Of a stretch of 64,000 bases of DNA, positions 10,464 through 61,089 are shown piece after piece. The translations under genes and the position numbers were made by a program. This DNA comes from Clostridiales bacterium Firm_04 (GTDB lineage Bacteria; Bacillota; Clostridia; Oscillospirales; Ruminococcaceae). Position 1 is the stretch's first letter, and each line of letters begins with the position of its first letter. The DNA is taken from contig LVAJ01000027.1 in the NCBI GenBank assembly GCA_001603005.1, forward strand, positions 1 to 64,000, written 5' to 3'. The notes beneath the pieces were generated by a model. That model did not search any database. It saw nothing but the letters and a program-made list of their open reading frames with translations, and was not told where the DNA came from.

Positions 10464-10469
10464 TTCTGG

Positions 10470-10556
10470 CGGAGAAAGAGGGATTTGAACCCTCGCGACC
10501 CTTTCGAGCCCTACTCCCTTAGCAGGGGAGCCCCTTCACCACTTGGGTATTTCTCC
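10470..10556 (-). tRNA. tRNA-Ser(GCT)
   Basis: Cloverleaf readable: acceptor ggagaaa, anticodon loop CTGCTAA, long variable arm, T-loop gttcaaatc. Confidence 0.93.
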
Positions 10557-10589
10557 AACGTCGGTGAATGCGATATCCGGGAGATTTGT

Positions 10590-10678
<89 letters not shown>

Positions 10679-10782
10679 TTTCGGATTCAGCTTTATCATT
10701 ATATCACAAAATCGAAGTTTTGTCAAGTACTGATTGGAAAAAAATTGCCGGTTTGCACGATTTGTTGAATACTGCCGAATCA

Positions 10783-10974
10783 GCGGGCAGTGCCCGCCGC
10801 CGTGATAGCGCCCATAAAGCAGAACGGTAAAATTTATGTCCTCTCTCCCATTGCACTTTTCGCAGATATATGCTATAAGCGGGCAGTGCCCGCCTCCATT
10901 ATAACGCCCATGAAGCGAAAAGCAGATTTTTTGCATTCTCTCCCATTGCACTTTTCGCGGATATATGTTATAAT
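10783..10974 (+). repeat. Two tandem ~96-bp promoter-bearing repeats upstream of degV
   Basis: Each unit starts with gcgggcagtgcccgc, contains cgcccatRaagc, and ends ctctcccattgcacttttcgcRgatatatgYtataa. Confidence 0.85.
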
Positions 10975-11021
10975 AGGGGGGGCGGGGGAGAACGAATCAA
11001 CCCGCACGAAAGGAGCCTTGC

Positions 11022-11897
11022 ATGGCTGATTATATCATTGCGGCTGCATCGACTGCCGATCTGCCGGAGACCTTTTATCAGGATCACGAGATCCCGCTGA
11101 TCCGCTATACGTATTCGATCGGCATGGATGTCTTTGAGGACGACTGCCGCGAGGAATCGCGCGCACAGGCGTATCAGGAAATGCGCCGCGGCGTGGTGTA
11201 TTCGACCTCGATGATCAACGAGGAGACTTATTACGAGTTTTTTCGCGGCTTGATGGAGCGCGGAAAAGACGTGCTGTATCTGGATATGTCGAAGGAGATG
11301 TCCAGCTCCTATGCGGCATCGCACCGTGCGGCGGCGCGCGTGCAGCAGGCGTTTCCGGATCAGCAGCTTGTTCTGCCGGATACGCGCTGCATTTCGGGCG
11401 GACTCGGTCTGCTTCTGCGCGAATCCGTGCGCCACATGGAAGAAGGCATGGGTTTTCAGGCATTGCTGAACTGGATCGAGAGCAATAAACTCCATATCAT
11501 GCACCGTTTTACCGTTGACGATCTGAACTATCTGAAGCGCGGCGGCAGAGTGTCGAACGCCTCTGCGATGATCGGTTCGATGCTGTCGATCAAGCCGGTT
11601 TTGTACGTACCGGACGACGGCAAGCTGACGGTTTCGTCGAAGGTACGCGGCAGACGCGCGGCGATGCAGGCATTGCTGGACGGCGTCAAGCGCGACATGA
11701 CGGCGCCTTCCGGGCAGCACATCATCATCAATCATGCGGACTGCGAGGCAGATGCGAACTGGCTGCGCAATGAGCTGCTGGATGCTTATCCGACGCTCGG
11801 CGGCGTGGATATCTACCAGCTCGGCGTCATCATCGGCGCGCACTGCGGACCGGGCTTGCTGACGGTGTTTTATTTCGGCGATCAGCGCAAAGCATAA
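11022..11897 (+). CDS. DegV family fatty-acid-binding protein
   Basis: ADYIIAAASTADLPETFY N-terminus, VYSTSMINEETYYEFF, FTVDDLNYLKRGGRVS, GAHCGPGLLTVFYFG. Confidence 0.92.
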   Translation: MADYIIAAASTADLPETFYQDHEIPLIRYTYSIGMDVFEDDCREESRAQAYQEMRRGVVYSTSMINEETYYEFFRGLMERGKDVLYLDMSKEMSSSYAASHRAAARVQQAFPDQQLVLPDTRCISGGLGLLLRESVRHMEEGMGFQALLNWIESNKLHIMHRFTVDDLNYLKRGGRVSNASAMIGSMLSIKPVLYVPDDGKLTVSSKVRGRRAAMQALLDGVKRDMTAPSGQHIIINHADCEADANWLRNELLDAYPTLGGVDIYQLGVIIGAHCGPGLLTVFYFGDQRKA

Positions 11898-29009: not shown

Positions 29010-31958
29010 TTACGGTAGGATGACGGTCGCGGTGACCGTTTCAAATTGCGGATCGAGCAGCGACGATGCGGGCATAGCGATGTCCGGCACGCCGTTTGCG
29101 TCGATGTAGACCTGCCGGATGCGCGTGTGCCGGCAGGGATCGTAGAGCGGATCGGACGCATAGGTGCCGCAGGATTTGGAATCGTGTGCGGAAGGACGTG
29201 CGTGATAGACGATCAGCAGATTGCCGTTTTCATCGGTGACGAAGGAGTTGTGTCCCGGACCGGATTCGCCCGCAACATCCGCGGAGCTGAGCACCGGCGA
29301 TTTGAGCTTTGTCCAGCTCTTGATGTCCATGAGGTCGGCGTCCGCATCGGCTTCCATTCTGCCGACGCAGTATTCCGAGCCGGTGCCGGATGCGGAGAAG
29401 AACACATAGACTTTGCTGCCGGTTTTCAGGACGGCAGCGCCCTCATTGACGCGGTGATTGACCTTTTCCCAGTCGTATTCCGGCTTGGTCAGCAGGATTG
29501 GCTTGGAGATCAGCTTCCACGGCTCATCAGGATTGATCTGCGCCAGGAACAGAGAGGAATCGCCCTTGATCTCCGCCCAGATCACATAATGCTTGCCGTT
29601 GTTTTCAAAATAGGTCATGTCGAGCGAAAAGCTTGTGAATGAATCGGAATCGCCGGCGGAAGCCTGCATCTGTCCGCATTCTGTCCATGTGCCGGTATAG
29701 GGATCGCCGTCGCAGCGCAGCACATAGGGGCGGATCGCCCAGATATCGGAGCTTGCGCCTGCCGCGAAGAACATGTACCATTTTCCGCCGATTTTGTGCA
29801 TTTCCGGCGCCCAGATATGCTTTGCGAGGATGCCGCTGCTGTGCGCCTTCCAGATCGTTTTCTCCTCTGCGGATGCGAGCCCCGCAACGGTATTGCTCCG
29901 GCGCAGAATGATGCGGTCATAGCCCTTGTCCACGCTGCCGTATGCCGGATAGGACGCAGTAAAATAGAACCAGCCGTCGCCGCCGTCCGTGATAAAGGGA
30001 TCGGCGCGTTCGGTGATGAACGGGTTCTTGTAGCTTGCCGGCTTGACCGTTCCGCGGACAGTATAGCTGCCGGATGCGGCGCCGCTGAGCTTTGCGAGGT
30101 CGTCGCTGTTCCATGTGACCGGCAGCTCCATCGTGCCGCCGTCGCTGTACTGTGCGGTGACAGTCTCCGGCATGCGGAATGCGCTGCTGTTTGCGCGGAC
30201 GGAAATCTGTTCAATGCCGGTGTTATAGGTGCCTGCACTGCTGCTGCCGCCGCCGAATGCGCCGGTCAGTGCGGTGTACTGATTCTGCGTGATCGGGATG
30301 ACGTAGCCGTGGCGCGGGGTGAAGCCCTCGAAGCTGTAATCGCTGCGGCTGACGGTCGTGAAGTTTTGCAGATCGGTCGTTTTCTGCATGACGTAGTAGC
30401 CGTCGCCGTAGGCATCGGACATCAGCAGCCACTCATTTCTGCCGGTGACTTTATAGATATTCGGACCTTCGACGCCGAGGCTGCCTTCCGAGATCTGCTT
30501 GATCTCCTTGTACGGACCGGATGCGCTGTCCGCCGTCGCGAGATAGATGTGCTTGTTCGTTTCATTTTTATAATACATATAGTATGTGCCACCGGAGCAG
30601 ATGATATCGGAGTCGATCGCGTCATTGCCGTTTGCCGGTGCAAAGAGCAGCTTCGGCGCAGTATCCAGCTTCATCAGATCCTTGCTGTATGCATAATACA
30701 TGACCGTGCGGTTATCGGTTCCGGGAACGCGCGCCGCGAAGTAGATCATATAGGACTGCTCCTTCGGATCGTAGATCGCCTGCGGCGCCCATGCGCGGTC
30801 GCAGCCCTGCATGTTCGGGTATTTGTTTGCGATCTCAATGAGCGATTCATCGAACCAGTGCACGAGGTCGGTGGATTTTGCGCTGATGAGATTGCGGTTG
30901 CTGCTCCAGCCGAGCGAGGATTTCATGTCCGTAGCGAGCAGATGCCAGAGCCCGTCCTCGCCCTTGAACACATAGGGATCGCGGATGCAGCCCGTGCCGA
31001 CGGATGACTGCCAGACTGCCCTGCCGCCGTTCAGCGCGGTGAAATGATAACCGTCGCGGCTGATCGCGTAGGACAGGCGTTCCTGTTCCGGTGCATTGCC
31101 GAGGAAGTAGGCGAACAGATAGGCGACCGGCTTGCCCTCGAAATAGGGGTAATAGGAATCTGTGCTGAGAAATTTGTCGCGTTTGGCAAGCAGATAATCG
31201 CTGAGCGCTTCGGCATCCTCATGACTGACCGGAACCTGCGGCGGCTTCGCTTCGGGATCCCGGAAATAGGAATAGGCAAGATCGCCGCACTGCGCAATGC
31301 CCGCCATGATATCGTCAAAGCCGTTCAGTATGCCGCGCTTCTGGAGCGTCAGGTCTTTCGCGGTCAGGACACCGTCGAAATCGAGGTCGGCTTTGGCATA
31401 GCGATATTTTTCTGCGGTCGGGCGGATATAGAATTTCTGTCCCTCGCCGCCCCAGTAGTCCCACTGGTCGATGTTCGCGCCGTTGTCATAGCTGATGTCA
31501 TAGACGTCCATTGCCGCATTGCCGCTGCATTTTGCGGTGATGTAGTAGGCATCGTCGGTACGGTTCAGCCGGAACAGCTGCGAAGCCGCGCCGGTGTATG
31601 CCGCGAGGGAAAAGTTATTGCCGTTTGTGCTGTCGCCGCCCTCGACGGTGATCGCCTTGCTGTGGTCGCCGCCTGCGAGAAATGCGACATACCCGTTTCC
31701 GGCATCCACGATCCGCCAGTTCTGGGAATCGTCGCCGCGCGCCGCCCACTGCATGACATTGCCGTTTGTGTCGGCAGTGATGAATTTGCCGCTCAGCCGC
31801 ACCATAATGGTGTAGTCGGTGCCGAACGGGATCTGCTTTGCGCTGTCCGCATAGCTTGCGCTGACGATGCCGGACGCAGCATTTGCCGACTGCACCGGCA
31901 GCAGACATGCCGCACAGCCCGCGAGCAGCATTGCAGATACCAGACCGCTTCTTCTCAT
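29010..31958 (-). CDS. Secreted enzyme with ricin-type lectin-like module, single dockerin-like loop, and two GH43 domains separated by an Ig-like module
   Basis: Signal peptide; SGKFITADTNGNVMQW... lectin-like; YAKADLDFDGVLTAKDLTLQKRGI; first GH43 GCIRDPYVFKGEDGLWHLLATD; second GH43 ERADPFITDGGDGWFYFTASYP, HIWAPEMHKIGGKWYMFFAA. Confidence 0.87.
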   Translation of the reverse strand: MRRSGLVSAMLLAGCAACLLPVQSANAASGIVSASYADSAKQIPFGTDYTIMVRLSGKFITADTNGNVMQWAARGDDSQNWRIVDAGNGYVAFLAGGDHSKAITVEGGDSTNGNNFSLAAYTGAASQLFRLNRTDDAYYITAKCSGNAAMDVYDISYDNGANIDQWDYWGGEGQKFYIRPTAEKYRYAKADLDFDGVLTAKDLTLQKRGILNGFDDIMAGIAQCGDLAYSYFRDPEAKPPQVPVSHEDAEALSDYLLAKRDKFLSTDSYYPYFEGKPVAYLFAYFLGNAPEQERLSYAISRDGYHFTALNGGRAVWQSSVGTGCIRDPYVFKGEDGLWHLLATDMKSSLGWSSNRNLISAKSTDLVHWFDESLIEIANKYPNMQGCDRAWAPQAIYDPKEQSYMIYFAARVPGTDNRTVMYYAYSKDLMKLDTAPKLLFAPANGNDAIDSDIICSGGTYYMYYKNETNKHIYLATADSASGPYKEIKQISEGSLGVEGPNIYKVTGRNEWLLMSDAYGDGYYVMQKTTDLQNFTTVSRSDYSFEGFTPRHGYVIPITQNQYTALTGAFGGGSSSAGTYNTGIEQISVRANSSAFRMPETVTAQYSDGGTMELPVTWNSDDLAKLSGAASGSYTVRGTVKPASYKNPFITERADPFITDGGDGWFYFTASYPAYGSVDKGYDRIILRRSNTVAGLASAEEKTIWKAHSSGILAKHIWAPEMHKIGGKWYMFFAAGASSDIWAIRPYVLRCDGDPYTGTWTECGQMQASAGDSDSFTSFSLDMTYFENNGKHYVIWAEIKGDSSLFLAQINPDEPWKLISKPILLTKPEYDWEKVNHRVNEGAAVLKTGSKVYVFFSASGTGSEYCVGRMEADADADLMDIKSWTKLKSPVLSSADVAGESGPGHNSFVTDENGNLLIVYHARPSAHDSKSCGTYASDPLYDPCRHTRIRQVYIDANGVPDIAMPASSLLDPQFETVTATVILP

Positions 31959-32009
31959 AGAATAACCCCCTTATTCCCGTCCGAATTGTACAGACAGGTT
32001 TCTGCCTTG

Positions 32010-32340
32010 ATTATAGCATATTATCGGGAAAAGTGCAATGGGAGAGGGGACATAAATTTTACCGTTCTGCTTTATGGGCGCTATCACGGCTAAGGGCACT
32101 GCCCGCTTATAGCACATTATCCGGAAAAGTGCAATGGAGTGTGCGTATTTTTCAAATGATGCAGAATGGGAGCAGTAACTTATGAGAAGCCGCGAACAGC
32201 GGCGTGTACTGCGATTACGGGGACAGTCCGCGAAACCGGCTCCCGGAGGGAATCGGCAGCGGGCACTGCCCGCTTATAGCATATTATCGGGAAAGTGCAA
32301 TGGGAGAAAAGGCATAATTTTGCAGTTTCGCTTTATGGCA
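32010..32340 (-). repeat. Three copies (one interrupted) of the promoter-bearing repeat upstream of GH43 gene
   Basis: Minus strand: (g)cgggcagtgcccgc palindromes and repeated cccattgcactttt(c)ccgataatatgctataaK; 32010-32106, 32107-32273, 32274-32340. Confidence 0.83.
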
Positions 32341-38024: not shown

Positions 38025-38162
38025 ATTCCTTTCTGTTTTTCAGCGCCGGCATACACCGGCTTTCTGTATTGTAATAGTATAGCACAACACCCCTCTTTTT
38101 GTCAAGCGCGGCGGGGAGCCCCCGCTGGCATATCCCTCCGGAGTGCGGCAGCGTGGCTCGCC

Positions 38163-38215
38163 CAGCATTCGCAGTACACGCCGCTAGACGCGGCTTCTGT
38201 GGCGTGACTGCTCCC
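38163..38215 (+). repeat. Second interspersed repeat (copy of 32168-32220, inverted)
   Basis: Shared tcgcagtacacgccgct-N3-cgcggcttct-N6-t-N-actgctccc. Confidence 0.75.
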
Positions 38216-38226
38216 AGCGGATCAAG

Positions 38227-38268
38227 TGAATGGTGAATAGTGAAAAATGAATGGTGAATAGTGAAAAC
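38227..38268. repeat. 21-bp tandem direct repeat x2
   Basis: tgaatggtgaatagtgaaaaa / tgaatggtgaatagtgaaaac. Confidence 0.85.
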
Positions 38269-47555: not shown

Positions 47556-48635
47556 ATGCAAACAGATGAAATCAGACTGCTGCAAACACTGCACACGGTC
47601 ACGGACACGGATTCCGGTTCGGACGATGCAGAATACCGCATTTCGTTTTCGGTTGACTGCGCGTTCAGGAAAGCAAAATCGCATGCTGCGGAAGTGATGA
47701 TGCTCTGCACCTATGCGCCGGATGCGGAATACGGGACAGAGGGCGACAGCCCGTATCTTGCGGTTCAGTGCGATGATGCGGTTTATGAAGCGGTCGAATC
47801 CTACAAGAAAACCGGCAGCTTTGACGGCGCATCGGAGCTGACGCCGCTTTCCGGACAGTTCCTGTTCAAAGCGAAAATGGAATACTTTGGGGAGATGATG
47901 TATTTTTACGCGCTCGACCGCTGCGGCGGGTTCTGGGAGAACAACGCGCTGTGCATGGTCTATCCGAAGAAATATGCCGGCACGGAAAATGAGCAGCGGC
48001 TCATGCAGGTGCTCGATGCCGCCGCTGCCAGCTACCGCGAGGAACGCATCGGCAGCGATCCTGCGCCGCACAGCCAAGCGCCCGCTCCGGTATCGCAGCA
48101 AACCGCAAAGCGTGATGTGCTGCAAACCGTCACGCAAACCGCGAAAAAAATCAACCGGCTGCGATTCTGGGCAAGGCTTGCGGTGCTGGTCGGGCTGATT
48201 GCGGTCATGATCGGCGGCGGGATCGCCAAACGCTTCCGGATACAGCATCTCATTGCGCAGAACGGCAGCGAAACCGTTCTCTCTGACTTTACGCCGGACG
48301 AACAGCAGCAGATCCTCGATGCATTTCATATCACGGTTCCCGCGCAGGAGCAGGATGCCTGCGTATCGGCATTTCTGCGCAGCAACCGGAATGAAAAGAT
48401 GTGCTCCTATGTCATCGAGATCGGCGGTGTTTCGGATTATGATGCGTTTTTTGCGGCGAATGCGGCGCGCGATCTGGGACAGTCGGTCAATGAAACGCGC
48501 GTGCCGGATCCGAAAAAACGGTATTATATCACGTACAATGTGCATTTCGTGCAGGATCCCGAACAGCGCGCAAAGCATGAACATGCCGCTGCCTATGACC
48601 GGATCGAGGCGCTGTTTGCGGCGCTCTCTGCATGA
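47556..48635 (+). CDS. Hypothetical single-TM protein
   Basis: Plus promoter upstream; C-half TM ARLAVLVGLIAVMIGGGIA. Confidence 0.7.
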   Translation: MQTDEIRLLQTLHTVTDTDSGSDDAEYRISFSVDCAFRKAKSHAAEVMMLCTYAPDAEYGTEGDSPYLAVQCDDAVYEAVESYKKTGSFDGASELTPLSGQFLFKAKMEYFGEMMYFYALDRCGGFWENNALCMVYPKKYAGTENEQRLMQVLDAAAASYREERIGSDPAPHSQAPAPVSQQTAKRDVLQTVTQTAKKINRLRFWARLAVLVGLIAVMIGGGIAKRFRIQHLIAQNGSETVLSDFTPDEQQQILDAFHITVPAQEQDACVSAFLRSNRNEKMCSYVIEIGGVSDYDAFFAANAARDLGQSVNETRVPDPKKRYYITYNVHFVQDPEQRAKHEHAAAYDRIEALFAALSA

Positions 48636-48668
48636 TACTGTATATGGAGCAAATGGAAGGGGAACAAC

Positions 48669-49268
48669 ATGAATCAACGTCTCAAAAAAGCCGCCATAGC
48701 AGGCATTGCCGGAGAAATTCTTTATTGTATTTCAATGGCGTTATTTTTGATCACGCAGGCTGAAGCCGCATTGACATTCTGGGAAGCAATGACAGTCGCC
48801 GGAGCAATGATCATGCTGATTGTTTTGGCAGTGATCGCGGATGAATATCAAATGCAGCAAATCTATCACAAACTCATGCTGATTGCAGTGTCGGGAACCG
48901 TATTTCTTACATCTGCTGCACATTTTACGAGTATCGGTGTGATCCGGAAACTGGAATCACAGGGTATATCTGTTCCCGATTATTTCAAAATAGGAGCATC
49001 ACCGAGTATCGAAATGACGATAGATTATGCTGCATGGGGCTTCTTTATGGGATTTGCTTTTCTTGCCCTGTTTCTTGGAATGAAAGAGAAAGCAATCAAA
49101 AGCTGCTCCGTCATCTGCGGAATCCTTTGTCTGTGCGGTTTTGCCGGAAGTTTCATCTCGGATTCTTTCTGGTATGCTGCACCGCTTGGGTACGGGATTG
49201 GATTCCTTGTTATGTGTATTTTTGTCCTCAGATCAGCAAAAGCGCAATCAGTACAAGGGCAGGCATAA
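48669..49268 (+). CDS. Hypothetical multi-TM membrane protein
   Basis: Hydrophobic segments; RBS ggaagggg before ATG. Confidence 0.7.
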   Translation: MNQRLKKAAIAGIAGEILYCISMALFLITQAEAALTFWEAMTVAGAMIMLIVLAVIADEYQMQQIYHKLMLIAVSGTVFLTSAAHFTSIGVIRKLESQGISVPDYFKIGASPSIEMTIDYAAWGFFMGFAFLALFLGMKEKAIKSCSVICGILCLCGFAGSFISDSFWYAAPLGYGIGFLVMCIFVLRSAKAQSVQGQA

Positions 49269-49307
49269 GCCCGTCCATCACACATTCAGCGCATTGCGCA
49301 TCATCGT

Positions 49308-49372
49308 ATCACAAAAAGCCGGACAGGGATTCAGGCGGCGAAATGCCTGATTCTCTGTCCGGCTGATTTTAT
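49308..49372. terminator. Bidirectional terminator
   Basis: aaaaagccggacaggga...tctctgtccggctgatttt. Confidence 0.75.
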
Positions 49373-50373
49373 GGTTCCGCATGCAGATGCCGTTCGTACT
49401 GCGCAAGATAATCCTGCACGAGTGCTTCTGCATCTGCATAGCTGTTGAGCGCCGCTGACCGCGCCCGGAATCCCGCGGCGCCCGGATATCCGCGCAGATA
49501 CCAGAGCGCATGCTTGCGCGCTTCCCGCATTGCCAGCTGCTCGGATTTTTCGCTGCGTTCGAGGATCATCCGGATGTGCAGCAGCATTTCCTGCAAACGC
49601 TCCGGCACCGTCGGCGGCGTGAATGTTTCGCCGTTCACGGCTGCCGCGATCTCCGCAAAGAGCCACGGATTGCCGTAGGATGCCCGTCCGACCATGACCA
49701 GATCGCAGCCGGTTTCGCGGTACATCCGCAGCGCATCGGCGCCGCTTGTCACATCGCCGTTTCCGATGACCGGCACCCTGACCGCCTGCTTGACCGCCGC
49801 GATCGGCGCCCAGTCGGCTGTTCCGCTGTAAAACTGCATCCGCGTTCTGCCGTGTACGGTGATCGCCGCCGCGCCTGCCGCTTCCATGCGCTGCGCAAAC
49901 GGCACTGCATTGATCTCCGCGGCGTCCCAGCCGATGCGCATTTTGACCGTGACGGGGCATCTGCCGTCCGCTGCGCGCACCGCTGCCTGCACGATCTTTT
50001 CGGCAAGCGCAGGCGTTTTCATGAGCGCGCTGCCAGCGCCCTGATTGACGACCTTCGGCACGGGGCAGCCCATGTTCAGGTCAATGAAATCCGGCGCAAA
50101 CGGCAGGATCCGCTGCACTGCTTCCTCAATAAAATCCGGCTCGCTGCCGAACAATTGCAACCCCATCGGGCGTTCCTGCGCCGTGATCCTGCAAAGCTCC
50201 GCACTGCCGCGGCTGCCGTAACACAGCCCCTTTGCGGAGACCAGCTCGCCGGTCGTCATGCAGGCGCCGTGCGACCGGCAGAGCAGCCGGTATGCGGTAT
50301 CCGCGACCGATGCCATCGGTGCAAGCGCTGCCGTCTGCGGAACGGTCTGTCCCGCGATTGTCACTGTTGTCAT
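49369..50373 (-). CDS. tRNA-dihydrouridine synthase
   Basis: LAPMASVADTAYR, DLNMGCPVPKVVNQGAGSALM, VHGRTRMQFYSGTADW, VMVGRASYGNPWLF. Confidence 0.95.
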   Translation of the reverse strand: MTTVTIAGQTVPQTAALAPMASVADTAYRLLCRSHGACMTTGELVSAKGLCYGSRGSAELCRITAQERPMGLQLFGSEPDFIEEAVQRILPFAPDFIDLNMGCPVPKVVNQGAGSALMKTPALAEKIVQAAVRAADGRCPVTVKMRIGWDAAEINAVPFAQRMEAAGAAAITVHGRTRMQFYSGTADWAPIAAVKQAVRVPVIGNGDVTSGADALRMYRETGCDLVMVGRASYGNPWLFAEIAAAVNGETFTPPTVPERLQEMLLHIRMILERSEKSEQLAMREARKHALWYLRGYPGAAGFRARSAALNSYADAEALVQDYLAQYERHLHAEP

Positions 50374-51203
50374 GCTGAAACTGTTTCCCCCAATAGTCTT
50401 TGCGCGTTCTGATGCGTAATCAGTGCAAGCTCCTGCGCCGTCAGTCCGAGCGACTGCAAAAATGCCAGCGTATCTGCCGGATCCTCCCACGGCGAATCTG
50501 AGCCGAACACGACCTTGTCAGCACCGTGCGCACGGATCATGCGCAGGCATTGCGCCGGATCAATGAACTGCCGGATGAACGCGGTATCAAAATGAATCGG
50601 CGTGCCGACCAGATATTTTTCCACATCGTCCCACTCCGCCCAGCCGCCGAAATGCGCGGCGATCAGGTGCGAGCCTTCCATTTCGGTCAGCACATGCGAG
50701 ATCTTTTCCGGCGTGGTATAAACCGGCGGCGGCAGTCCGATATCGGCGCCTGCATGGAAAATGACCAGCAGACCGAGAGATTCGCATTTTTTCAGGATGC
50801 GGATGACTTCGGGGCTGTCGATGTCATACTGCTGGAACTGCAAATGCAGCTTGATGCCGCGAAATCCGCGCGCTGCGAGCGATTCGAGCACGCGTTCCCA
50901 TTCCGGATCGGCGGGGTGGAGCGTGCCGAACGAGAGCACCTTCTCCGAGCGCACGGTCTCCGCAAAGCGGTTGATGCTTTCGGTCTGCGAGGGCTTTGTC
51001 GCGATCGGCAGGCAGATGCTCCTGTCCACGCCGGAGCGTTCCATAGACGCGAGCAGCCCTTCGAGTGTTGCCGGACGGCAGGTCAGCGGTGCGCCGCCGC
51101 CGTAATCCTCGCCCTGCTCCCGTTTGATTCCGGCGACCAGCGCATCAATGCTCCGCTGCGCAATTTTCTCCGGAAAAATATGCGTGTGAAAATCAATCAG
51201 CAT
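50370..51203 (-). CDS. Amidohydrolase family (TIM-barrel) protein
   Basis: MLIDFHTHIFPEKIA, RGIKLHLQFQQYD, KVVFGSDSPWEDP. Confidence 0.9.
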   Translation of the reverse strand: MLIDFHTHIFPEKIAQRSIDALVAGIKREQGEDYGGGAPLTCRPATLEGLLASMERSGVDRSICLPIATKPSQTESINRFAETVRSEKVLSFGTLHPADPEWERVLESLAARGFRGIKLHLQFQQYDIDSPEVIRILKKCESLGLLVIFHAGADIGLPPPVYTTPEKISHVLTEMEGSHLIAAHFGGWAEWDDVEKYLVGTPIHFDTAFIRQFIDPAQCLRMIRAHGADKVVFGSDSPWEDPADTLAFLQSLGLTAQELALITHQNAQRLLGETVSA

Positions 51204-51215
51204 GTATGCCTCCGT

Positions 51216-51971
51216 TTACATGTACTCCATGAGAAAGCCGTAGCCCTCCAGCCGCGGCACATCGACCTCATTGAGGATCATATCCATAATCTCGTTTTCG
51301 TCCGCGCAGGCGGCATAGCGCTTGCGTTCCTCATAGTCATAATTCTGGTCAATTGCCTCCTGAAGCTCCTCCGGATCCTCGATATCACCGTAGTAAAATT
51401 CATCGGTTTCCCACGGTTCTACGGAGAATTTCGCATAGTTCAGGCAGAAGTACAGCGCGGCAAACGTCCGCTCTCTGCCGATCGTCCGGCGCAGCATTGC
51501 AAAGACCGGCAGCATGTTGTCATCCTGTTTCAGATTATCCGAAAGCACCTGCACGAGCAGTTCCTGCGGATAGCCGCCGTCCTCGGCAGGATCGTAATGA
51601 ACGGCATCCAGATCGGTATTGTGCAGCATTTCTTTCGCAATATCCGACAAAGGAAATGCGAGCTCCGGCTGCTCCGGATCGTCGATCTCCTCAAAGAACC
51701 GCGCCGCGAACATCTGATAGATGCGGCAGCTGCCCTGAATCATGCTCATCAGCGCGAGCCTTTCCGCAAGATTGCTGTAAAAATGCCGCTTCTCCCGCAC
51801 GATCAGCTGCCAGATCATCCGGAACCAGACCATGTATTCGCCGTCAAGCCGGACGTCGCCCGCTTCGATATTGCGTTCAAATTCCGTTTGTGTGTACTGC
51901 TCCATTGGGCACCCCTTTCTCACGGTTCGGAAAAGGCTGTACAGATCTCCTGCACAGCCCTTTTGTCTCAA
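51216..51971 (-). CDS. Hypothetical protein
   Basis: Coding-like ORF; start probably MEQYTQTEFE (51905). Confidence 0.6.
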   Translation of the reverse strand: MRQKGCAGDLYSLFRTVRKGCPMEQYTQTEFERNIEAGDVRLDGEYMVWFRMIWQLIVREKRHFYSNLAERLALMSMIQGSCRIYQMFAARFFEEIDDPEQPELAFPLSDIAKEMLHNTDLDAVHYDPAEDGGYPQELLVQVLSDNLKQDDNMLPVFAMLRRTIGRERTFAALYFCLNYAKFSVEPWETDEFYYGDIEDPEELQEAIDQNYDYEERKRYAACADENEIMDMILNEVDVPRLEGYGFLMEYM

Positions 51972-52633
51972 AAATACTGTAAAAATCCGGCATCGCCGAG
52001 CGCCTGCCAGCTGTCTGTCACCTGATCGCAGACGGCTTCGAGCGCGTCCCAGTCCTCGCGGCTGTACGGATCGCGGAAGCCGACTGTGTAGAATCCCGCA
52101 GCCTTCGCGGTTTCTGCGGCATGCAGCGCGTCTTCGATGACGGCGGTTTCCGCAGGCGCCGTGCCGAGCAATTTTGCCGCAGCCAGATAGATATCCGGCG
52201 CATGCTTGCCTGCAAGCTCCGTATCCGGCGTCAGCACACCGCGGAAGCAGTCCGCAATGCCGAGCCGGTCGAGTGCGGCATGCAGCAGCGCAGGGTAATT
52301 CGCGCTGGCAATCACGCAGGGGATCTCCTGATGCGCCGCCTGTTCGAGAAATGCCTTTGCGCCTGCTTTCAGCGGCAGATGCAGCCGGTACGCTTCCTCT
52401 GCGAGCTGCTCGATGCGTGCCTTGACGGCTTCGGGCGTCATTTGCAGCCCGAACCGCTCCACGAAATACGCCGAGGATGTCTCCACGGTCATCGTTTTTA
52501 CAATGTCGGAGATATCGTCCGGCGGTTCAATGCCGTTTTCGCGCAGGAATGTCCGGTCGAGATCCCGCCACATGCCCATCGAATTGAGCAATGTGCCGTC
52601 CACATCGAAAATGATTCCGTTCAGCTTTTTCAT
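51968..52633 (-). CDS. HAD superfamily hydrolase
   Basis: GIIFDVDGTLLNSMGMW, VIASANYPALL, AVIEDALHAAETAKAAGFYTVGF. Confidence 0.93.
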   Translation of the reverse strand: MKKLNGIIFDVDGTLLNSMGMWRDLDRTFLRENGIEPPDDISDIVKTMTVETSSAYFVERFGLQMTPEAVKARIEQLAEEAYRLHLPLKAGAKAFLEQAAHQEIPCVIASANYPALLHAALDRLGIADCFRGVLTPDTELAGKHAPDIYLAAAKLLGTAPAETAVIEDALHAAETAKAAGFYTVGFRDPYSREDWDALEAVCDQVTDSWQALGDAGFLQYF

Positions 52634-52645
52634 TCTGCTTCTCCG

Positions 52646-53248
52646 TTACATTTCGCTGCGGTTGGAGAGCGCGCGGTAGAGCGTCACCTCATCGGTGTAC
52701 TCGATTACGCCGCCGACGGGCAGTCCGAATGCCAGACGCGTGACGCGCACGCCGAGCGGCTTGCACAGGCGCGACAGATACATCGCGGTCGCTTCGCCCT
52801 CGACGCTCGGATTCGTCGCCATGATCAGCTCGGAGATGCCGCCTTTCCGGATGCGCTCCAGAAGCTCTGCGACACGCAGCTGATCTGCGGTGACGCCGTC
52901 CAGCGGGGAGATTAGTCCGTGCAGGACATGATACAGCCCGTGATACTCATGCGTCCGCTCGATCGCGGCAACATCCTTCGGTCCCTCGACGACGCAGACG
53001 ATGCTGGAATCGCGCTTCGGATTCGCGCAGATGCTGCAGATTTCCTGTTCCGTCAGATTCTGGCAGACAGGGCAGTCATGCACCTGATGCTTGGCATTGA
53101 GGATCGCGTCCGCGAAGGCATGCGCTTCCTCCTCCGGCATCTCCATGACCGCATACGCAAGGCGCTGCGCGGTTTTCATTCCGATCCCCGGCAGCGCTGC
53201 AAATTTTTCTGCTAATACAACAAGCGGCAGTGCGCTGAAGTCCTCCAT
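52646..53248 (-). CDS. recR: Recombination protein RecR
   Basis: KFAALPGIGMKTAQRLAY, CPVCQNLTEQEICSIC, VVEGPKDVAAIE. Confidence 0.97.
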   Translation of the reverse strand: MEDFSALPLVVLAEKFAALPGIGMKTAQRLAYAVMEMPEEEAHAFADAILNAKHQVHDCPVCQNLTEQEICSICANPKRDSSIVCVVEGPKDVAAIERTHEYHGLYHVLHGLISPLDGVTADQLRVAELLERIRKGGISELIMATNPSVEGEATAMYLSRLCKPLGVRVTRLAFGLPVGGVIEYTDEVTLYRALSNRSEM

Positions 53249-53253
53249 CGGAC

Positions 53254-53598
53254 TCAGAACAGTCCCGGCAGAGCCACGCCGCCGGTGATCTTGCTCATCT
53301 CATTCTCGGTGGTGGTCTCGATGTTGTTGACCGCCTCATTGACGGCGCTGATGATGAGATCCTGAAGCATGTCGATATCCTCCGGATCCACAACTTCCTT
53401 CTTCAGCTCAAGAGACTGGATCGTCTTCTTGCCGGTCAGGGTAACGGTGACAGCACCGCCGCCTGCCGTTGCAGAGAATGTGCGCTGCTCGATGTCTTCC
53501 TGAAGTGCAGTGATCTGATCCTGCATTTTGCGGGCCTGATGGATCATGGAGTTCATGTCTCCGCCGCCCTGAAACTGCTTGGGTACTCTGGATTTCAT
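53254..53598 (-). CDS. YbaB/EbfC nucleoid-associated protein
   Basis: NSMIHQARKMQDQITALQEDIEQRTFSATAGGGAVTVTLTGKKTIQSLEL; between dnaX and recR. Confidence 0.95.
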   Translation of the reverse strand: MKSRVPKQFQGGGDMNSMIHQARKMQDQITALQEDIEQRTFSATAGGGAVTVTLTGKKTIQSLELKKEVVDPEDIDMLQDLIISAVNEAVNNIETTTENEMSKITGGVALPGLF

Positions 53599-53676
53599 AA
53601 GAATTCTCCTATCATTTTCTAAATTTATATATGATAAGCCGCGCAGCATTGCCGCATGCGGCTGCATCATGCATGA

Positions 53677-55287
53677 TTATACGCCGATATTCTCCTGCTC
53701 GCTGACCGCGATGCCCTGTGCCTGCGCACGCTGCAGCAGCACATCGGCAGGCGCCTGCTGCTCCGCTTCGGGCTCCACGGATTTATAGCGGATCGAATAT
53801 TTTTTGCCGAGCACCTGCTGTGCGGCAGCGCCCAGCGCAACGGCATCCTTCTGCGTAAACAGCTTCCGGAACAGTTTGTTCCGCACCATCATCAGCAGGA
53901 TCCCTGTTTCGTCATTCGCAAACGCGGTCGATTCCTGCAGCAGACCGGAAACAGACGGGTTGACCTCGTCGAACCGTTCCAGAACAGTTGCCCAGTTCTT
54001 CACGGGGATGTATTTGGATGTATCCGGCTTGCCCTCGATCTGCAGATTCTGCGCGGGAACATCGCCCTTCGGTGCCGGCGCTTTGCGCGGCGCAGAGGGC
54101 AGGGGAGCGGCTGGTACACCGTTCTGTTTCAGCTCCGCGATCTGCTGTTCGAGCTGTGCGATCCTCGCGTTCAGCGCCTGTTCATCGCCCTTTTGCGCCT
54201 GAAAATCGCTGCAAAGACGGATCAGCGTCATTTCCAGCTCCATCCGGCGGTTTCCGGCGCGTGTCATGCGGTCGCAGCAGGCGCGCACCGCAGAAAGCGC
54301 TTCGAGGATCCCCGCAAGCGAAAATCCCTTCGCAAGCTCCTGAAGCTGTGCGGCATCATCCGGCATTACGCCGAGCAGCGAAAGATCGTTCGGCGCGGTT
54401 TTCAGCAGCATCAGCGCACGCAATTGCTGCGAGAGCTCGTCTGCAAAGCGCGTCATATCCTTCGACTGCCGGTAGAGCAGGTCGATGCGTTCGAGCGCCG
54501 CCGAAGCATTGTGTCCGGAGATCGCACGCAGGATCTCGTAGACCGATTCCGTTCCCGCTACGCCGACCGCTTCCTCAACCGTCGAAAGCTCGATCTGTTC
54601 GGAAACTGCCGCGCACTGATCCAGCAGGCTCAGTGCATCGCGCATACCGCCGTCCGCAAGCATTGCAATGCGGTGTGCGGCGGCATCGGAGATCGAAAAG
54701 GCTTCATGCTCCGCGATAAACTGAATGCGTCCGACGATATCCGCAGGCAGGATCCGGCGGAAATCAAACCGCTGGCAGCGGGAAAGGATCGTTGCCGGAA
54801 CCTTGTGGATCTCGGTGGTCGCAAACACGAATTTGACGTAGGCAGGCGGTTCCTCGATCATTTTCAGCAGCGCATTGAACGCGCCGGCTGACATCATATG
54901 CACCTCGTCGATGACATACACCTTATATTTGCAGCGTACCGGCAGGAGCGCGGCATTTCCGCGCAGGCTGCGCACTTCATCGACGCCGTTGTTCGAGGCA
55001 CCGTCGATCTCAATGATATCTGTCAGCGCGCCGGCTTCGGCATCGCGGCAGATCTCGCATTCGAGGCAGGGATTCCCGTCCTTCGGATGCAGGCAGTTGA
55101 CTGCCTTTGCAAAGATGCGGGCACAGGTGGTCTTACCGGTGCCGCGCGATCCTGTAAACAAATAGGCATGCGCTGTTTTTTCGCGCATGATCTGATTTTT
55201 CAGTGTTCTGGTGATATGCGGCTGCGCGACAATGTCCTCAAAGGTCTGCGGCCGCCATTTGCGATACAGCGCTTCATATGCCGCCAT
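53677..55287 (-). CDS. dnaX: DNA polymerase III subunit gamma/tau
   Basis: ALYRKWRPQTFEDIVAQPHITRTLKNQI, LFTGSRGTGKTTCARIFAKAVNC. Confidence 0.97.
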   Translation of the reverse strand: MAAYEALYRKWRPQTFEDIVAQPHITRTLKNQIMREKTAHAYLFTGSRGTGKTTCARIFAKAVNCLHPKDGNPCLECEICRDAEAGALTDIIEIDGASNNGVDEVRSLRGNAALLPVRCKYKVYVIDEVHMMSAGAFNALLKMIEEPPAYVKFVFATTEIHKVPATILSRCQRFDFRRILPADIVGRIQFIAEHEAFSISDAAAHRIAMLADGGMRDALSLLDQCAAVSEQIELSTVEEAVGVAGTESVYEILRAISGHNASAALERIDLLYRQSKDMTRFADELSQQLRALMLLKTAPNDLSLLGVMPDDAAQLQELAKGFSLAGILEALSAVRACCDRMTRAGNRRMELEMTLIRLCSDFQAQKGDEQALNARIAQLEQQIAELKQNGVPAAPLPSAPRKAPAPKGDVPAQNLQIEGKPDTSKYIPVKNWATVLERFDEVNPSVSGLLQESTAFANDETGILLMMVRNKLFRKLFTQKDAVALGAAAQQVLGKKYSIRYKSVEPEAEQQAPADVLLQRAQAQGIAVSEQENIGV

Positions 55288-55302
55288 AGCCGATCCACTC
55301 CT

Positions 55303-56226
55303 TTAGCTTTCGGGATCCGCCTGCTCATCGGATGCAGCGCCGGTCTTTTCCGACCAGTCCGGATGCAGCTCCAGCATGAGCCGTTTCGTCTCCTCGAAAT
55401 ATTTGCGGAAAGCAGCCGGCTCGTCCAGATGATTGACCAGCGCTTTATAGTGATAATCCTGTGCGGTGATAAAATCGCCCTTTTGCAGCGCGGCGATCGC
55501 CATGCCGCTCAGTGCAAAGGCATAATTCTGCTTTTTCGCGATCGACTGCTGAAACCATTCCTCCGCCTCGTCGGGCTTTCTCTGCCGGATAAACAGGAAC
55601 CCGATGTCGGTATACAGAAAATAGAAATCCTCCGGCGGATCGTTTTCGAGCAGATCCTGAAAAAGCCGCAGACTGCGTTCATAATCGCCGCCCTCTGCAC
55701 AGCTGCGCGCCTCGAACAGCGTCGCATAATGCGCGGAAAAGCCCTTCTCGCGTGCCGTTTCAAAGTAGCTGACGGCATTCGAGGGGCAGCGGAGCATCTG
55801 ATAGCATCTGCCGATATAAAAGGAAAGCACGCCTGCTTCGGCGTCTGTCAGGTCATATTCGCGCACTGCGAGGAAATGCTCCAGCGCCGTGCGTGCGCGT
55901 TCCTTGGAATATGCTTCGAGTCCGTCGGAAAAGAGCCTGTCCTGCTTGCGCAGTCCGCCGAAGACATTGCCGATGAGATCGCTGTCAAGGCGTGTCGCTG
56001 CGCGGACGAGACTCCGGTATTCGATCACGCAGGTCGCGATAAAGCATGCTCCGTAGCAAAGCAGAAGAAGCTCCAGATAGTAGAGCGGATTCAGCTCTGC
56101 GCTTTCCGGTGCGCCGCGCCTGACAAAACCGGCGATCAGGACGCCGTCGATCAGCAGCGCCCAGAAGGCAGCCTTTTCCGCGACCTTGCCGAGCTGCGCC
56201 GCATATTTCCGGAGCCAATTGCCCAT
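55303..56226 (-). CDS. TPR-like repeat protein with N-terminal TMs
   Basis: Start corrected to MGNWLRKYAAQ; TPR-like helical repeats. Confidence 0.75.
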   Translation of the reverse strand: MGNWLRKYAAQLGKVAEKAAFWALLIDGVLIAGFVRRGAPESAELNPLYYLELLLLCYGACFIATCVIEYRSLVRAATRLDSDLIGNVFGGLRKQDRLFSDGLEAYSKERARTALEHFLAVREYDLTDAEAGVLSFYIGRCYQMLRCPSNAVSYFETAREKGFSAHYATLFEARSCAEGGDYERSLRLFQDLLENDPPEDFYFLYTDIGFLFIRQRKPDEAEEWFQQSIAKKQNYAFALSGMAIAALQKGDFITAQDYHYKALVNHLDEPAAFRKYFEETKRLMLELHPDWSEKTGAASDEQADPES

Positions 56227-56279
56227 TACTACGCCTCCGTTCAGGGTTGACAGTGGATCAAAAACGCGGATAAGCAAGA

Positions 56280-56412
56280 AAAATTCCGGAGCATAGGTGT
56301 GCAGGCTGACTGCGGCACGCCCAGCGATCCGCTTAATGCTGCTCGGTTCCCCGCCTGACATGGTTCACGGTGCTTAGCTGCACAGGGCCCGCACACCTAT
56401 AATCCGGAATTT
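56280..56412 (-). ncRNA. ffs: Bacterial SRP RNA
   Basis: Minus strand gtgaaccatgtcaggcggGGAAccgagcagcattaag helix 8 apical loop; closing stem ccggattataggtgtgcggg...cctgcacacctatgctccgg; located upstream of dnaX. Confidence 0.93.
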
Positions 56413-56654
56413 CCAGATGTTTCTTGCCGAACGCGGTGTCTCTCCTGCGTTCTGGTAACATTATACCACATTTCTTTCTGAATTTCAAGGGGTAAATTGT
56501 GTTTTCTGATAATTTTTGCAAATTGCGAAAAATACACTTGACATTTTCGTAACTTTGTGCTATAATAGCAAAGCAGTCGGGAGACAGAACGAACCCGGAC
56601 GGGGGACAGAACGATCTCCGCGAACACGAAAATCTCTCAATCGACTGGAAAAAT

Positions 56655-56731
56655 CGAGGTGTGGCTCAGTTTGGTAGAGCGCTGCGTTCGGGACGCAGAG
56701 GCCGCAGGTTCAAGTCCTGTCACCTCGACCA
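56655..56731 (+). tRNA. tRNA-Pro(CGG)
   Basis: cgaggtgtggctcagtttggtagagcgctgcgttCGGgacgcagaggccgcaggttcaagtcctgtcacctcgacca, encoded CCA. Confidence 0.95.
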
Positions 56732-56961
56732 TATCGGAAAAAACAGGCAGCAGGCGAAAGCATGCAGCCTGTTTTCTTTTTGCATAGGAGCGCGCAGAGC
56801 GGGGGAGACTCCGGTTCGGCGCGCTTTTTGTTTCTGCCCCCGCCGCAAAAAAACAAAGCCCGCCGAAGCGAGCTTTGCTTTTGCTGTCCGTCGGGAAGTA
56901 CGGACTGCGCGGCATCCATCCCAAACCGCAAAAGGGTGTATTGTCGATAGAAAGCAGGAAA

Positions 56962-58212
56962 TTATTGTTTGAGCTTGTTTTTGAAAGCATCCGATGTGAT
57001 ATCGCACATGTATTTTCCGCTGTATGTGGATGTTGCATTATAGTAGAAGTAAACGCGTGCGTTTGTGCCCGGATGACTGTTCAGCCAGTTCTGCACCCAA
57101 GTATTGTGCGCAAAGCCGTCCTTCCAGCCGTAGGAGAGGAATATATCCAGCTTCTGCTGTCCGTAGGCTTTCTGAAACTCCGGAATTGTGATGTCCTTTT
57201 CGCCGATTGAAATATAGAGATTGTTTCCGCTTGTTCTTGCACACACAAAATTCTTCGTGTTGAGGAAATTGTTTTTCTGTGTACCGGAAATTGCAGTGTG
57301 CAGCGTATTGCCGTCCAGATAACCGGCATAAACATTATTATATAGCCGATCATATGTTTGCTCAAATTTGCTTGTATAATACGAAGCATACGCTCCTCCA
57401 GCATAATATGCGTTATTAAGGAACGTGAGATTTTTCAGGATTGTGCATGACTGTTTATTGCCAAAATACAGCGTTCCGTCTGTTTTGAACGGTATTTTTC
57501 CGCTGAACGACAGTTCGGTTTTGATGTATTCGTCATCTTCCAGAACAATCACCGGTTCTTCAAATTTTGTAAGATAGTCGAAACAAATAGCTTTCAGACC
57601 GGCAATATAGTAATCATACAGAACAAATTTTCCGGAATATTTACCTGTCTCACGATCCAGTGTGAAATCCTCCAGCTGAATTTGGCTAAGAAGATTATTG
57701 GTGTTGTATTCATTAAGCAGTCTGATTGCAAAATGATTTTTTTCTGCTTCCGCATCATACTCCAGTACAGAAGCAAGCGGTTGCAATGAATCGTTGCTCT
57801 GCCTTTTGCGAATAAAGAATTTGTCTGCACTAAGTTTTACCTGTGCAAGATTGTTGAACGGTGCAGCTGAAAAATCCAATGTGCAGAAAACTGATTCACT
57901 ACTTCCCCAGCCATGAAAAGAATTGTAAGGAAGCGTTTCTTTGATGTTACTTCCATTCAGATCGCTGAGAGAATAGGAAGGGTAGGCTTTTTGGAGACTG
58001 TTCGAGTTCCAAACATGCGAGAATAGATTTTTTGCATAAGACGACAGATTATTGTATGCAGCCTGCTGCGTACCGTTCAAATACAAATCGCCGTTTTGCA
58101 AATGCTTGGGTGCACCGTAAGCAGAAGCCGTCAACCCGGTTGCGGAAAGTGCGGAGACCGCTGTGATCGCTGCTGCGGCGAGTGCGGTCAGTTTACGGTA
58201 AATGTGTTTCAT
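56962..58212 (-). CDS. Secreted hypothetical protein
   Basis: Signal peptide MKHIYRKLTALAAAAITAVSALSATGLTASA; no recognised domain. Confidence 0.75.
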   Translation of the reverse strand: MKHIYRKLTALAAAAITAVSALSATGLTASAYGAPKHLQNGDLYLNGTQQAAYNNLSSYAKNLFSHVWNSNSLQKAYPSYSLSDLNGSNIKETLPYNSFHGWGSSESVFCTLDFSAAPFNNLAQVKLSADKFFIRKRQSNDSLQPLASVLEYDAEAEKNHFAIRLLNEYNTNNLLSQIQLEDFTLDRETGKYSGKFVLYDYYIAGLKAICFDYLTKFEEPVIVLEDDEYIKTELSFSGKIPFKTDGTLYFGNKQSCTILKNLTFLNNAYYAGGAYASYYTSKFEQTYDRLYNNVYAGYLDGNTLHTAISGTQKNNFLNTKNFVCARTSGNNLYISIGEKDITIPEFQKAYGQQKLDIFLSYGWKDGFAHNTWVQNWLNSHPGTNARVYFYYNATSTYSGKYMCDITSDAFKNKLKQ

Positions 58213-58400
58213 AAAAACCTCCTTTTGAATAAAAATTGATAGGAAAAAAGAAATGGAAAAGAAATGGAAAAAGGGTATCGTCAAATCCTGAGCTGTCTAT
58301 CTGAAAGCTGTCGTGCGTCGGGCAACCCCTTGACCTCCGCAACATCATCATAGCATAAACGCTCCGAAAAAGCAATATTTTCTGACAGAAAGCCGTTTTT

Positions 58401-58536
58401 CGCGACGAAATGCCGTATACGGCGACGAACGGGCAAAAAAACGCACTGAACTGCCCGTCCGCGACGAAATGCCGGATGTGGAATTTCGTCGCCGAAAAGC
58501 GGGATTTCGTCCAAAATTCCGCCATTCGTCCGCGAC
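58401..58536. promoter_or_regulatory. Putative operator array of CGACGAAAT-type motifs
   Basis: cgcgacgaaatgccg (58401, 58460), ggcgacgaacgggc (58421), inverted atttcgtcgcc (58483), gggatttcgtcc (58501), gccattcgtccgcgac (58521). Confidence 0.65.
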
Positions 58537-58539
58537 GGC

Positions 58540-58569
58540 TTGACAAAAGCAATATCGTCATGATATAAT
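58540..58569 (+). promoter_or_regulatory. Sigma-A promoter of LytTR regulator gene
   Basis: TTGACA-N18-TATAAT. Confidence 0.75.
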
Positions 58570-58609
58570 GAACATGATCCATAAATAAACAGACAAAGGG
58601 GGTTCTATC

Positions 58610-60319: not shown

Positions 60320-60531
60320 TCCCGTTTTCCTGCATCCATACCGATCCGGCAGCGACCGATCGGTATCTTTTTTTCGGGATACTATTATATATAATACAGC
60401 ATACGGCACGCGAGTATTCCGCTTGCAGCAGACTGAAAAGCCTGAAAAAAATTTTTTTCGATCGCTGCACAAAATCCGTTCCGTTTTCTGTCTGAATAGG
60501 CAGAGGAACATGAAAGGACGGTGCAAGATCC

Positions 60532-61089
60532 GTGAACGACAATGCAATGATCGCATTATTTGAGCAGAGAAATGAGCAGGGCATCGCAGAAGCAAACCGT
60601 GCGTACGGCGGCATGCTGCAAACGATCGCCGTGCGGATCCTGCGGGACAGCCGCGACGCAGAGGAATGCGTCAGCGACACATTCTTCAAGGCATGGAACA
60701 GCATTCCGCCGCAGAAACCGAAATTTTTCTCCGCATTTCTTGCAAAGCTGACGCGAAACTGTGCGCTCAACCGCTATACCGAAATGCATGCACAGAAGCG
60801 CGGCGGCGGTGTGGTGCCAGCGGTGCTGGATGAGCTTTCGGAATGCATCCCCGCGCAGTCGGACACGGAGCAGGAGATCGACCGTCTGTTCCTTTCGGAA
60901 GCGATCGAATCTTTTCTCTCGGCAATCCCGCATCAGCATGCAAAAATTTTTATGCACCGCTATTTTTCGATGCAGGAGCCGAAGGAGATCGCAGCAGAAT
61001 TGCAGATCAGCGAAAACACCGTCCGGAGTGTTCTGCGCCGGACGCGGGAAAAGCTTCAGGCCTATCTGGAACAGGAGGACTTGTTATGA
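60532..61089 (+). CDS. ECF-type RNA polymerase sigma factor
   Basis: ILRDSRDAEECVSDTFFKAWNSIP; EIAAELQISENTVRSVLRRTREKLQAYLE. Confidence 0.95.
   Translation: MNDNAMIALFEQRNEQGIAEANRAYGGMLQTIAVRILRDSRDAEECVSDTFFKAWNSIPPQKPKFFSAFLAKLTRNCALNRYTEMHAQKRGGGVVPAVLDELSECIPAQSDTEQEIDRLFLSEAIESFLSAIPHQHAKIFMHRYFSMQEPKEIAAELQISENTVRSVLRRTREKLQAYLEQEDLL

Follow-up and report, generated by a model that had tools for sequence, protein, structure and literature searches.

A short, apparently mobile promoter element of rumen Ruminococcus that probably inserts within −10 boxes and stacks into arrays

Promoter arrays in the window

The window, i.e., the whole stretch of DNA analyzed here, comprises the first 64,000 nucleotides of contig LVAJ01000027.1 from Clostridiales bacterium Firm_04 (assembly GCA_001603005.1). 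A degV gene in this window (Pfam match to DegV, PF02645, E 7.5e-59) is preceded by two head-to-tail units (Table 1). The 15-bp palindrome GCGGGCAGTGCCCGC occurs in both units, 96 bp apart, and each unit ends near a promoter-like sequence: TTGCAC-N17-TATAAG in the distal unit (10851-10879) and TTGCAC-N17-TATAAT in the proximal unit (10946-10974). Allowing up to two mismatches, we found seven matches to the palindrome in the window, where chance predicts 0.29; none of 100 shuffles reached seven. The 30-mer promoter pattern matched twice against 0.00 expected. A previous sequence-only reading of this DNA had described such a 96-bp pair combining palindrome and promoter, with the proximal TATAAT about 48 bp before the degV ATG; the pair was recovered in place and above chance, and the measured distance is 47 nt. 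The same reading proposed that each unit ends in TTGCAC-N17-TATAAK. The −35 hexamer and the spacing held, but the distal G did not: it already belongs to the second palindrome, being its first base, such that the distal promoter reads TATAA and then enters a hairpin.

A generic promoter scan of the window missed the degV promoter because TTGCAC equals TTGACA at only three of six positions. No RNA family was found by an Rfam search at the degV array. Two tRNA-Ser genes lie divergent from degV (10467-10726, minus strand) and have a perfect TTGACA-N17-TATAAT promoter at 10726-10698. Further downstream, the window contains a TPP riboswitch (Rfam RF00059; 22183-22288, plus strand).

A second array, overlooked in the earlier reading, is located on the minus strand at approximately 32278-32010. 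From far to near, its promoters carry TATAAG (32278-32273), TATAAG (32111-32106), and a terminal TATAAT (32015-32010), and its hairpins begin at 32273 and 32106. The product of the adjacent 982-aa gene looks secreted and has a weak alpha-arabinofuranosidase-like match that falls below the curated cut-off.

Table 1. Positions of the array components and neighboring genes in the window.
Feature	Position	Strand	Remark
Hairpin opening unit 1, palindrome GCGGGC-AGT-GCCCGC	10783..10797	+	Preceded by AATCA, not TATAA
Type-A spacer of unit 1 (CGCCGTGATAGCGCCCATAAAGC...CTCTCCCA)	10798..10850	+	
−35 TTGCAC of distal promoter	10851..10856	+	
6-bp box CTATAA, i.e., distal −10 minus its final T	10873..10878	+	Next base, 10879, is base 1 of hairpin 2
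Hairpin of gene-proximal unit, left end of proximal element	10879..10893	+	Covers the position where the distal promoter is expected to start transcription
Type-A spacer of unit 2 (CTCCATTATAACGCCCATGAAGCGAAAAGC...CTCTCCCA)	10894..10945	+	
−35 TTGCAC of proximal promoter, supplied by the element	10946..10951	+	
TATG, inferred right end of element; gives TG of extended −10	10964..10967	+	Repeat boundary at base −13
TTATAAT, i.e., second NTATAA copy plus native T; intact degV −10	10968..10974	+	
degV (PF02645)	11022..11897	+	Ribosome-binding site AAAGGAG at 11009-11015
Second array, three promoters	32010..32278	−	Before the 982-aa gene starting at 31958

Distribution, anatomy, and orientation of the family

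The unit is interspersed, as had been proposed from the degV pair with a genome-wide BLAST search as the check: BLAST located it at 50 places in its own genome, and the pattern CATTGCACTTT-N14-TATAA, with up to two mismatches, gave 130 matches compared to one for the reversed control. Family members were present in 20 of 25 genomes of the same genus (counting its own genome), and a search of 16 other genera of the order recovered none, counts drawn from draft assemblies, many of them clearly MAGs, in which repeats may collapse. The exact sequence TATAAGCGGGCAGTGCCCGC was found in 18 GTDB stretches, all from MAGs titled Ruminococcus, Oscillospiraceae, or Clostridia and mostly from the ruminant gut; phage and plasmid records yielded no match to the unit. 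The unit is apparently a genus-wide mobile element found in −10 boxes, beyond a local repeat.

We compared about 36 stretches surrounding the BLAST matches in the own genome with 80 loci from ten related species, and one rule described both sets. The gene-proximal promoter reads TATAAT followed by unique DNA, and each upstream promoter reads TATAA followed directly by a GC-rich hairpin, a spacer, and the next promoter; the −10 boxes of upstream units lack their last T and have G or C at −7. A single copy of about 90 bp extends from the GC-rich hairpin to ...ATAATATG and contains no ORF, and the consensus of the family promoter is TTGCAC-N17-TGNTATAAT. Type A units have a period of 94-97 bp and type B units one of about 160 bp with a hairpin-rich spacer; a type C spacer (GATCTAAAGC...CTTGCTTTTT) is also present. 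Both A- and B-like spacers occur in the region of the second window array (29013-32340, minus strand). The B repeat also spreads outside promoters: a copy in the window (GCGGGGAGCCCCCGC...; 38110-38230, plus strand) has no promoter at its end, and other promoter-less copies are found at L014 (4040), L016 (4532 and 4235), and L026 (4676).

Among 148 hairpins preceding a family promoter in the own genome and the ten related species, 101 directly follow TATAA or TATAC. Many of the other 47 follow TATA or a one-base variant, and some array-first copies, such as that at 10783, follow unrelated DNA. The stems differ between species (GCGGGC, GGCGGC, GCCGGC, CCGGGC, CCGCGC) and within one genome (at least four kinds in G004, two common kinds each in G005 and G020), yet they pair. 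Across 23 distinct variants, all six pairs had changed on both sides, 94% of cells paired, and the covariation score was 0.48 compared to 0.11 in shuffles; these figures are inflated by a hairpin finder that demanded at least five of six pairs, of which the five different fully paired stems are independent. The sequence-only reading regarded the palindrome as a cruciform or binding site upstream of its promoter. Hairpin behavior is consistent with the stem changes that keep complementarity, but the placement was amended, given that the palindrome at internal junctions abuts the TATAA of the previous promoter and replaces its last −10 base.

Folded as single-stranded DNA, the window unit gave a z of −2.97. 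A fold beyond the hairpin was dropped, as the post-hairpin part was ordinary over 87 units (mean z −0.30), and an inner inverted repeat suggested by the window-unit fold, TTATAAC...GTTATAA, had inconsistent base covariation.

We evaluated the proposal of a portable, oriented promoter element by scoring genes downstream of terminal promoters. For 92 of the 101 terminal promoters, a same-strand ORF with ribosome-binding site and start codon lay within 220 nt (median 48), compared to 26% of random positions; hence the copies are not placed in random orientation. The downstream genes are unrelated housekeeping genes, including metG, miaB, fba, ade, ruvC, rsmE, nadA, gatC, and degV, i.e., near-identical, promoter-bearing intergenic repeats lie upstream of non-homologous genes. 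The proximal promoter is presumably active and the distal promoters weak.

The elements often precede orthologous genes in several species (e.g., L140/L160 and L142/L273), which indicates that part of the pattern reflects inheritance. Such inheritance before the same genes, the palindrome beside promoters, and the arrays of 2 to 5 promoters would also be expected of a regulatory array in which the hairpin is an operator and the number of tandem promoters tunes the expression of a regulon. We consider this very unlikely, since the stem varies within a genome (at least four kinds in G004), unlike a single operator, the targets are unrelated housekeeping genes, and the terminal unit needs no downstream hairpin.

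Insertion junctions and a model for stacking

The junction lies between bases −8 and −7, inside the −10 hexamer. In G008, five copies with 97-100% identity are located between TATAA and T before unrelated genes, and their upstream DNA differs. The distal-most promoter of an array is often a plausible non-family promoter with a spacing of about 17 bp; its −35 hexamer is TTGAAA in L117 and L127, TTTACA in L114 and L156, TTGAAC in L026, TTGATT in L154, and TTGACA in L102. In addition, five loci from three species (L013, L025, L101, L132, L144) have distal promoters that read TATGNTA joined straight to the hairpin, with three bases (TAA) gone from the −10 box.

A short core, NTATAA, is repeated at both ends of the element. 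Base −13 agreed between distal and proximal promoters in 88 of 100 pairs (44.8 expected) and, among pairs with different spacers, in 28 of 36 (17.9 expected); in the latter, bases −26 to −19 were at or near expectation. Deviations of native promoters at −14, −16, or −17 (L117, L114, L102) were not copied by the proximal promoter, and L156, with the only terminal TATACT, has TATAC on both sides. The ends of the element appear to be marked by this 6-bp NTATAA repeat, because base −13 agrees and the neighboring deviations at −14, −16, and −17 are not followed. In 39 of 40 pairs of near-identical elements located at different loci, base −13 is the same; the element therefore appears to select targets matching its own overlap, in the manner of site-specific recombinases. 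Simple duplication of a random target site was disfavored, as overlap matching better fits a base −13 that follows the subfamily.

Comparison of orthologous loci showed that the −10 box and 5′UTR are in common, while the number of units differs and can be zero. In degV of about 20 species, the −10 box is similarly distant from the ATG and the upstream DNA is very different: G000 has two units and G004 one, the G020 copy follows an ATTGAG...TATAA promoter, and G003, G009, G001, and G017 have TTGACA promoters. Between G020, G019, and G024, whose coding DNA is mostly 88-95% identical, unit number differs at pyk, coaBC, and other genes, and the 5′UTRs align. G021 and G043, 98% identical in this region, have a common element and 5′UTR with different distal promoters, and the break coincides with the TATAA/hairpin junction.

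Tandem duplication with gene conversion offers an explanation without a mobile element: promoter regions with a palindromic spacer would be duplicated by slippage or unequal crossing-over and homogenized by homologous recombination. Identical 17-nt spacers in 31 of 101 neighboring promoters (5.8 in shuffles) and near-identical units in L010, L138, and L146 are in line with this process; indeed, several arrays consist of near-identical units that local tandem duplication explains equally well. As a general explanation it is nevertheless unlikely, given the identical units before unrelated genes in G008, the unrelated native promoters joined at exactly TATAA, and the difference between G021 and G043 solely upstream of the junction. 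The age order within arrays was weakly as predicted from stacking, with the proximal unit being younger in the four arrays with a clear difference and in 12 of 20 overall.

We think it probable that the unit is a short, non-coding mobile promoter of rumen Ruminococcus that inserts inside the −10 box, rebuilds the promoter, and stacks; the degV repeat appears to be one such stacked array. Insertion would take place within an existing −10 box, between NTATAA and the final T, leaving flanking NTATAA copies. The element would bring a −35 hexamer (TTGCAC), a 17-bp spacer, and the TG of an extended −10, with no −10 box of its own, and the new promoter would combine these with the NTATAAT of the target. 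Because the target NTATAAT is reused, the start site, 5′UTR, and ribosome-binding site would be unchanged. The old promoter would retain NTATAA, its T at −7 would become G or C, and the hairpin would cover its start site. Few bases of sigma-70/sigma-A promoters are more strongly conserved than the −7 T, and thus its loss should cripple the old promoter. The rebuilt −10 box could be hit again, such that units stack into arrays, to which unequal recombination would later add near-identical units. Movement presumably occurs by a site-specific mechanism.

If this model is correct, selfish DNA in an abundant rumen genus enters the −10 box, the very place where breakage is rebuilt and the gene taken over, and thereby overcomes the difficulty of inserting into a compact genome. 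The family would also amount to a natural system for swapping promoters, one whose copies ahead of the housekeeping genes pyk, metG, miaB, fba, and ruvC can be counted, and may point to a recombinase with a promoter consensus as its attachment site. With junctions, target, and stacking resolved at single-base level, the concept of mobile promoters, which has so far been mostly statistical, would become open to direct tests.

Known systems and a candidate recombinase

Matus-Garcia, Nijveen and van Passel in 2012 (NAR 40:10032) and van Passel et al. in 2014 (Genetics 197:291) reportedly found short repeats, assumed to be promoters, that propagate before non-homologous genes; these putative mobile promoters are said to lie upstream of genes and to have no defined target. 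As presented in the papers that cite them, they resemble the Ruminococcus element in being promoter-type repeats that spread before non-homologous genes, and differ in that the latter targets the −10 hexamer, has no −10 of its own, breaks the old promoter, and stacks. A literature search, in which the original mobile-promoter studies were represented through citations only, found no description of such an element.

TnGBS and ISLre2/ISKra4 elements (DDE, Mutator-like) have terminal inverted repeats and a DDE transposase and insert in an oriented manner 15-17 bp upstream of the −35 (PMC3942029). What they have in common with the Ruminococcus elements is an insertion that is oriented and held at a constant distance from sigma-A promoters; in contrast, the Ruminococcus elements lie inside the −10 box, rather than 15-17 bp upstream of the −35, and have neither inverted termini nor an ORF. 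Short, intergenic promoter-supplying repeats are also represented by the non-autonomous Correia repeat enclosed elements of Neisseria (PMC2649163) and by BrickBuilt of Porphyromonas gingivalis (PMC4596501), which also contains variable-number tandem repeats. Both are MITE-like with inverted termini, and the descriptions consulted mention no insertion into a −10 box. The left GC-rich hairpin and right ATAATATG of the Ruminococcus element, unlike MITE termini, are not inverted copies of each other.

REP/REPIN sequences with RAYT share a short GC-rich hairpin, a genome-wide population, and family variants per species, but the Ruminococcus elements carry promoters and 6-bp flanking repeats and most carriers have no Y1 transposase. 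Mobilization by a Y1 (IS200/IS605-like) transposase, recognizing a hairpin beside a short target as in REP/RAYT-type elements, would account for the left end, where the hairpin immediately follows a fixed short target. We regard this as highly improbable, since the flanking NTATAA repeat is not expected and Y1_Tnp (PF01797) is absent from G000 and from 27 of 30 genus genomes. Y1/RAYT was rejected as a general mover because most carriers, including the element-rich genomes G004, G005, G008, G020, and G021, lack the enzyme.

Tn916 is a tyrosine-recombinase element with a 6-bp crossover. Like SE-6945, it resembles the Ruminococcus elements in the 6-bp sequences that flank the integrated element and in a short AT-rich core. 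The SE-6945 tyrosine-recombinase element has a 6-bp crossover, and one flank derives from the donor site (PMC9345347); by comparison, the Ruminococcus elements have a −10 box as their core, and their two flanks agree at the variable base.

In G021, G043, G020, and G004, a tyrosine recombinase gene (PF00589, E 8e-24) immediately precedes promoters of the kind described here; in G024, the gene at this position is broken. Comparison with G043 delimited an element of about 12 kb in G021 that abuts −10 boxes at both ends: on the left, TAATGTG|CTATTA of a type-C promoter, and on the right, GGGTTGAAAAATCCGGGTTAATATG|CTATAA. The 12-kb element thus also has a −35 and TG at its end and appears to use the −10 box as a 6-bp core. 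Its right end carries a −35 and AATATG like the short elements, and the same right end (ATTTTCGCGGYGAGGGTTGAAA...TATG) is found where a promoter would lie in several species; the left end of the 12-kb element lacks a hairpin. A related G043 contig encodes a MobC/NikA-like mobilization protein, which suggests a mobilizable element. In G021, the element (contig C43, about 48600-60800; L337, L345) encodes the tyrosine recombinase, a 1592-aa protein that resembles exonuclease/RecQ/UvrD-like helicases by eye, a TerB-domain protein, and further uncharacterized proteins; it is possibly a cargo or defense island.

These observations bear on a possible, more specific version of the mobile-promoter explanation, namely that the units are tyrosine-recombinase cassettes with the −10 box as attachment site, are moved in trans by the integrase encoded on the 12-kb element or by a related enzyme, and have their hairpin within a folded recombination site as in integrons or CTX phage. 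The position of the PF00589 integrase, the −10 boxes at both ends of the G021 element, the base −13 common to near-identical pairs, as overlap matching predicts, and the 6-bp crossover known for such enzymes (PMC9345347) are consistent with this version; the hairpin-less left end of the 12-kb element is not, and the likeness of its right end to the short elements goes no further than that between promoters. Since target and core are shared with the short elements and the left end is not, we put forward movement of the short elements in trans by a 12-kb-type recombinase as a speculative hypothesis. More broadly, and with some doubt, we suggest that the sigma-A extended −10 (TATGNTATAA^T) might be the attachment site of Ruminococcus tyrosine recombinases, at which large mobilizable elements and hairpin-ended cassettes of about 90 bp would integrate in fixed orientation, each rebuilding the −10 box and taking over the gene without shifting the start site. 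The arrays would then be stackable like integron cassettes and the hairpin a folded recombination site.

Upstream of pyk in G024 (L285/L340), the 12-kb element has been cut to fragments by internal deletions, and the 3′ end of the recombinase gene is fused to a family promoter. Upstream of coaBC in the same genome (L271/L342), a weak (38%) similarity to the recombinase was observed near another non-family promoter with TATGCTATAAT; this stretch may represent a different group of recombinases that use −10 boxes.
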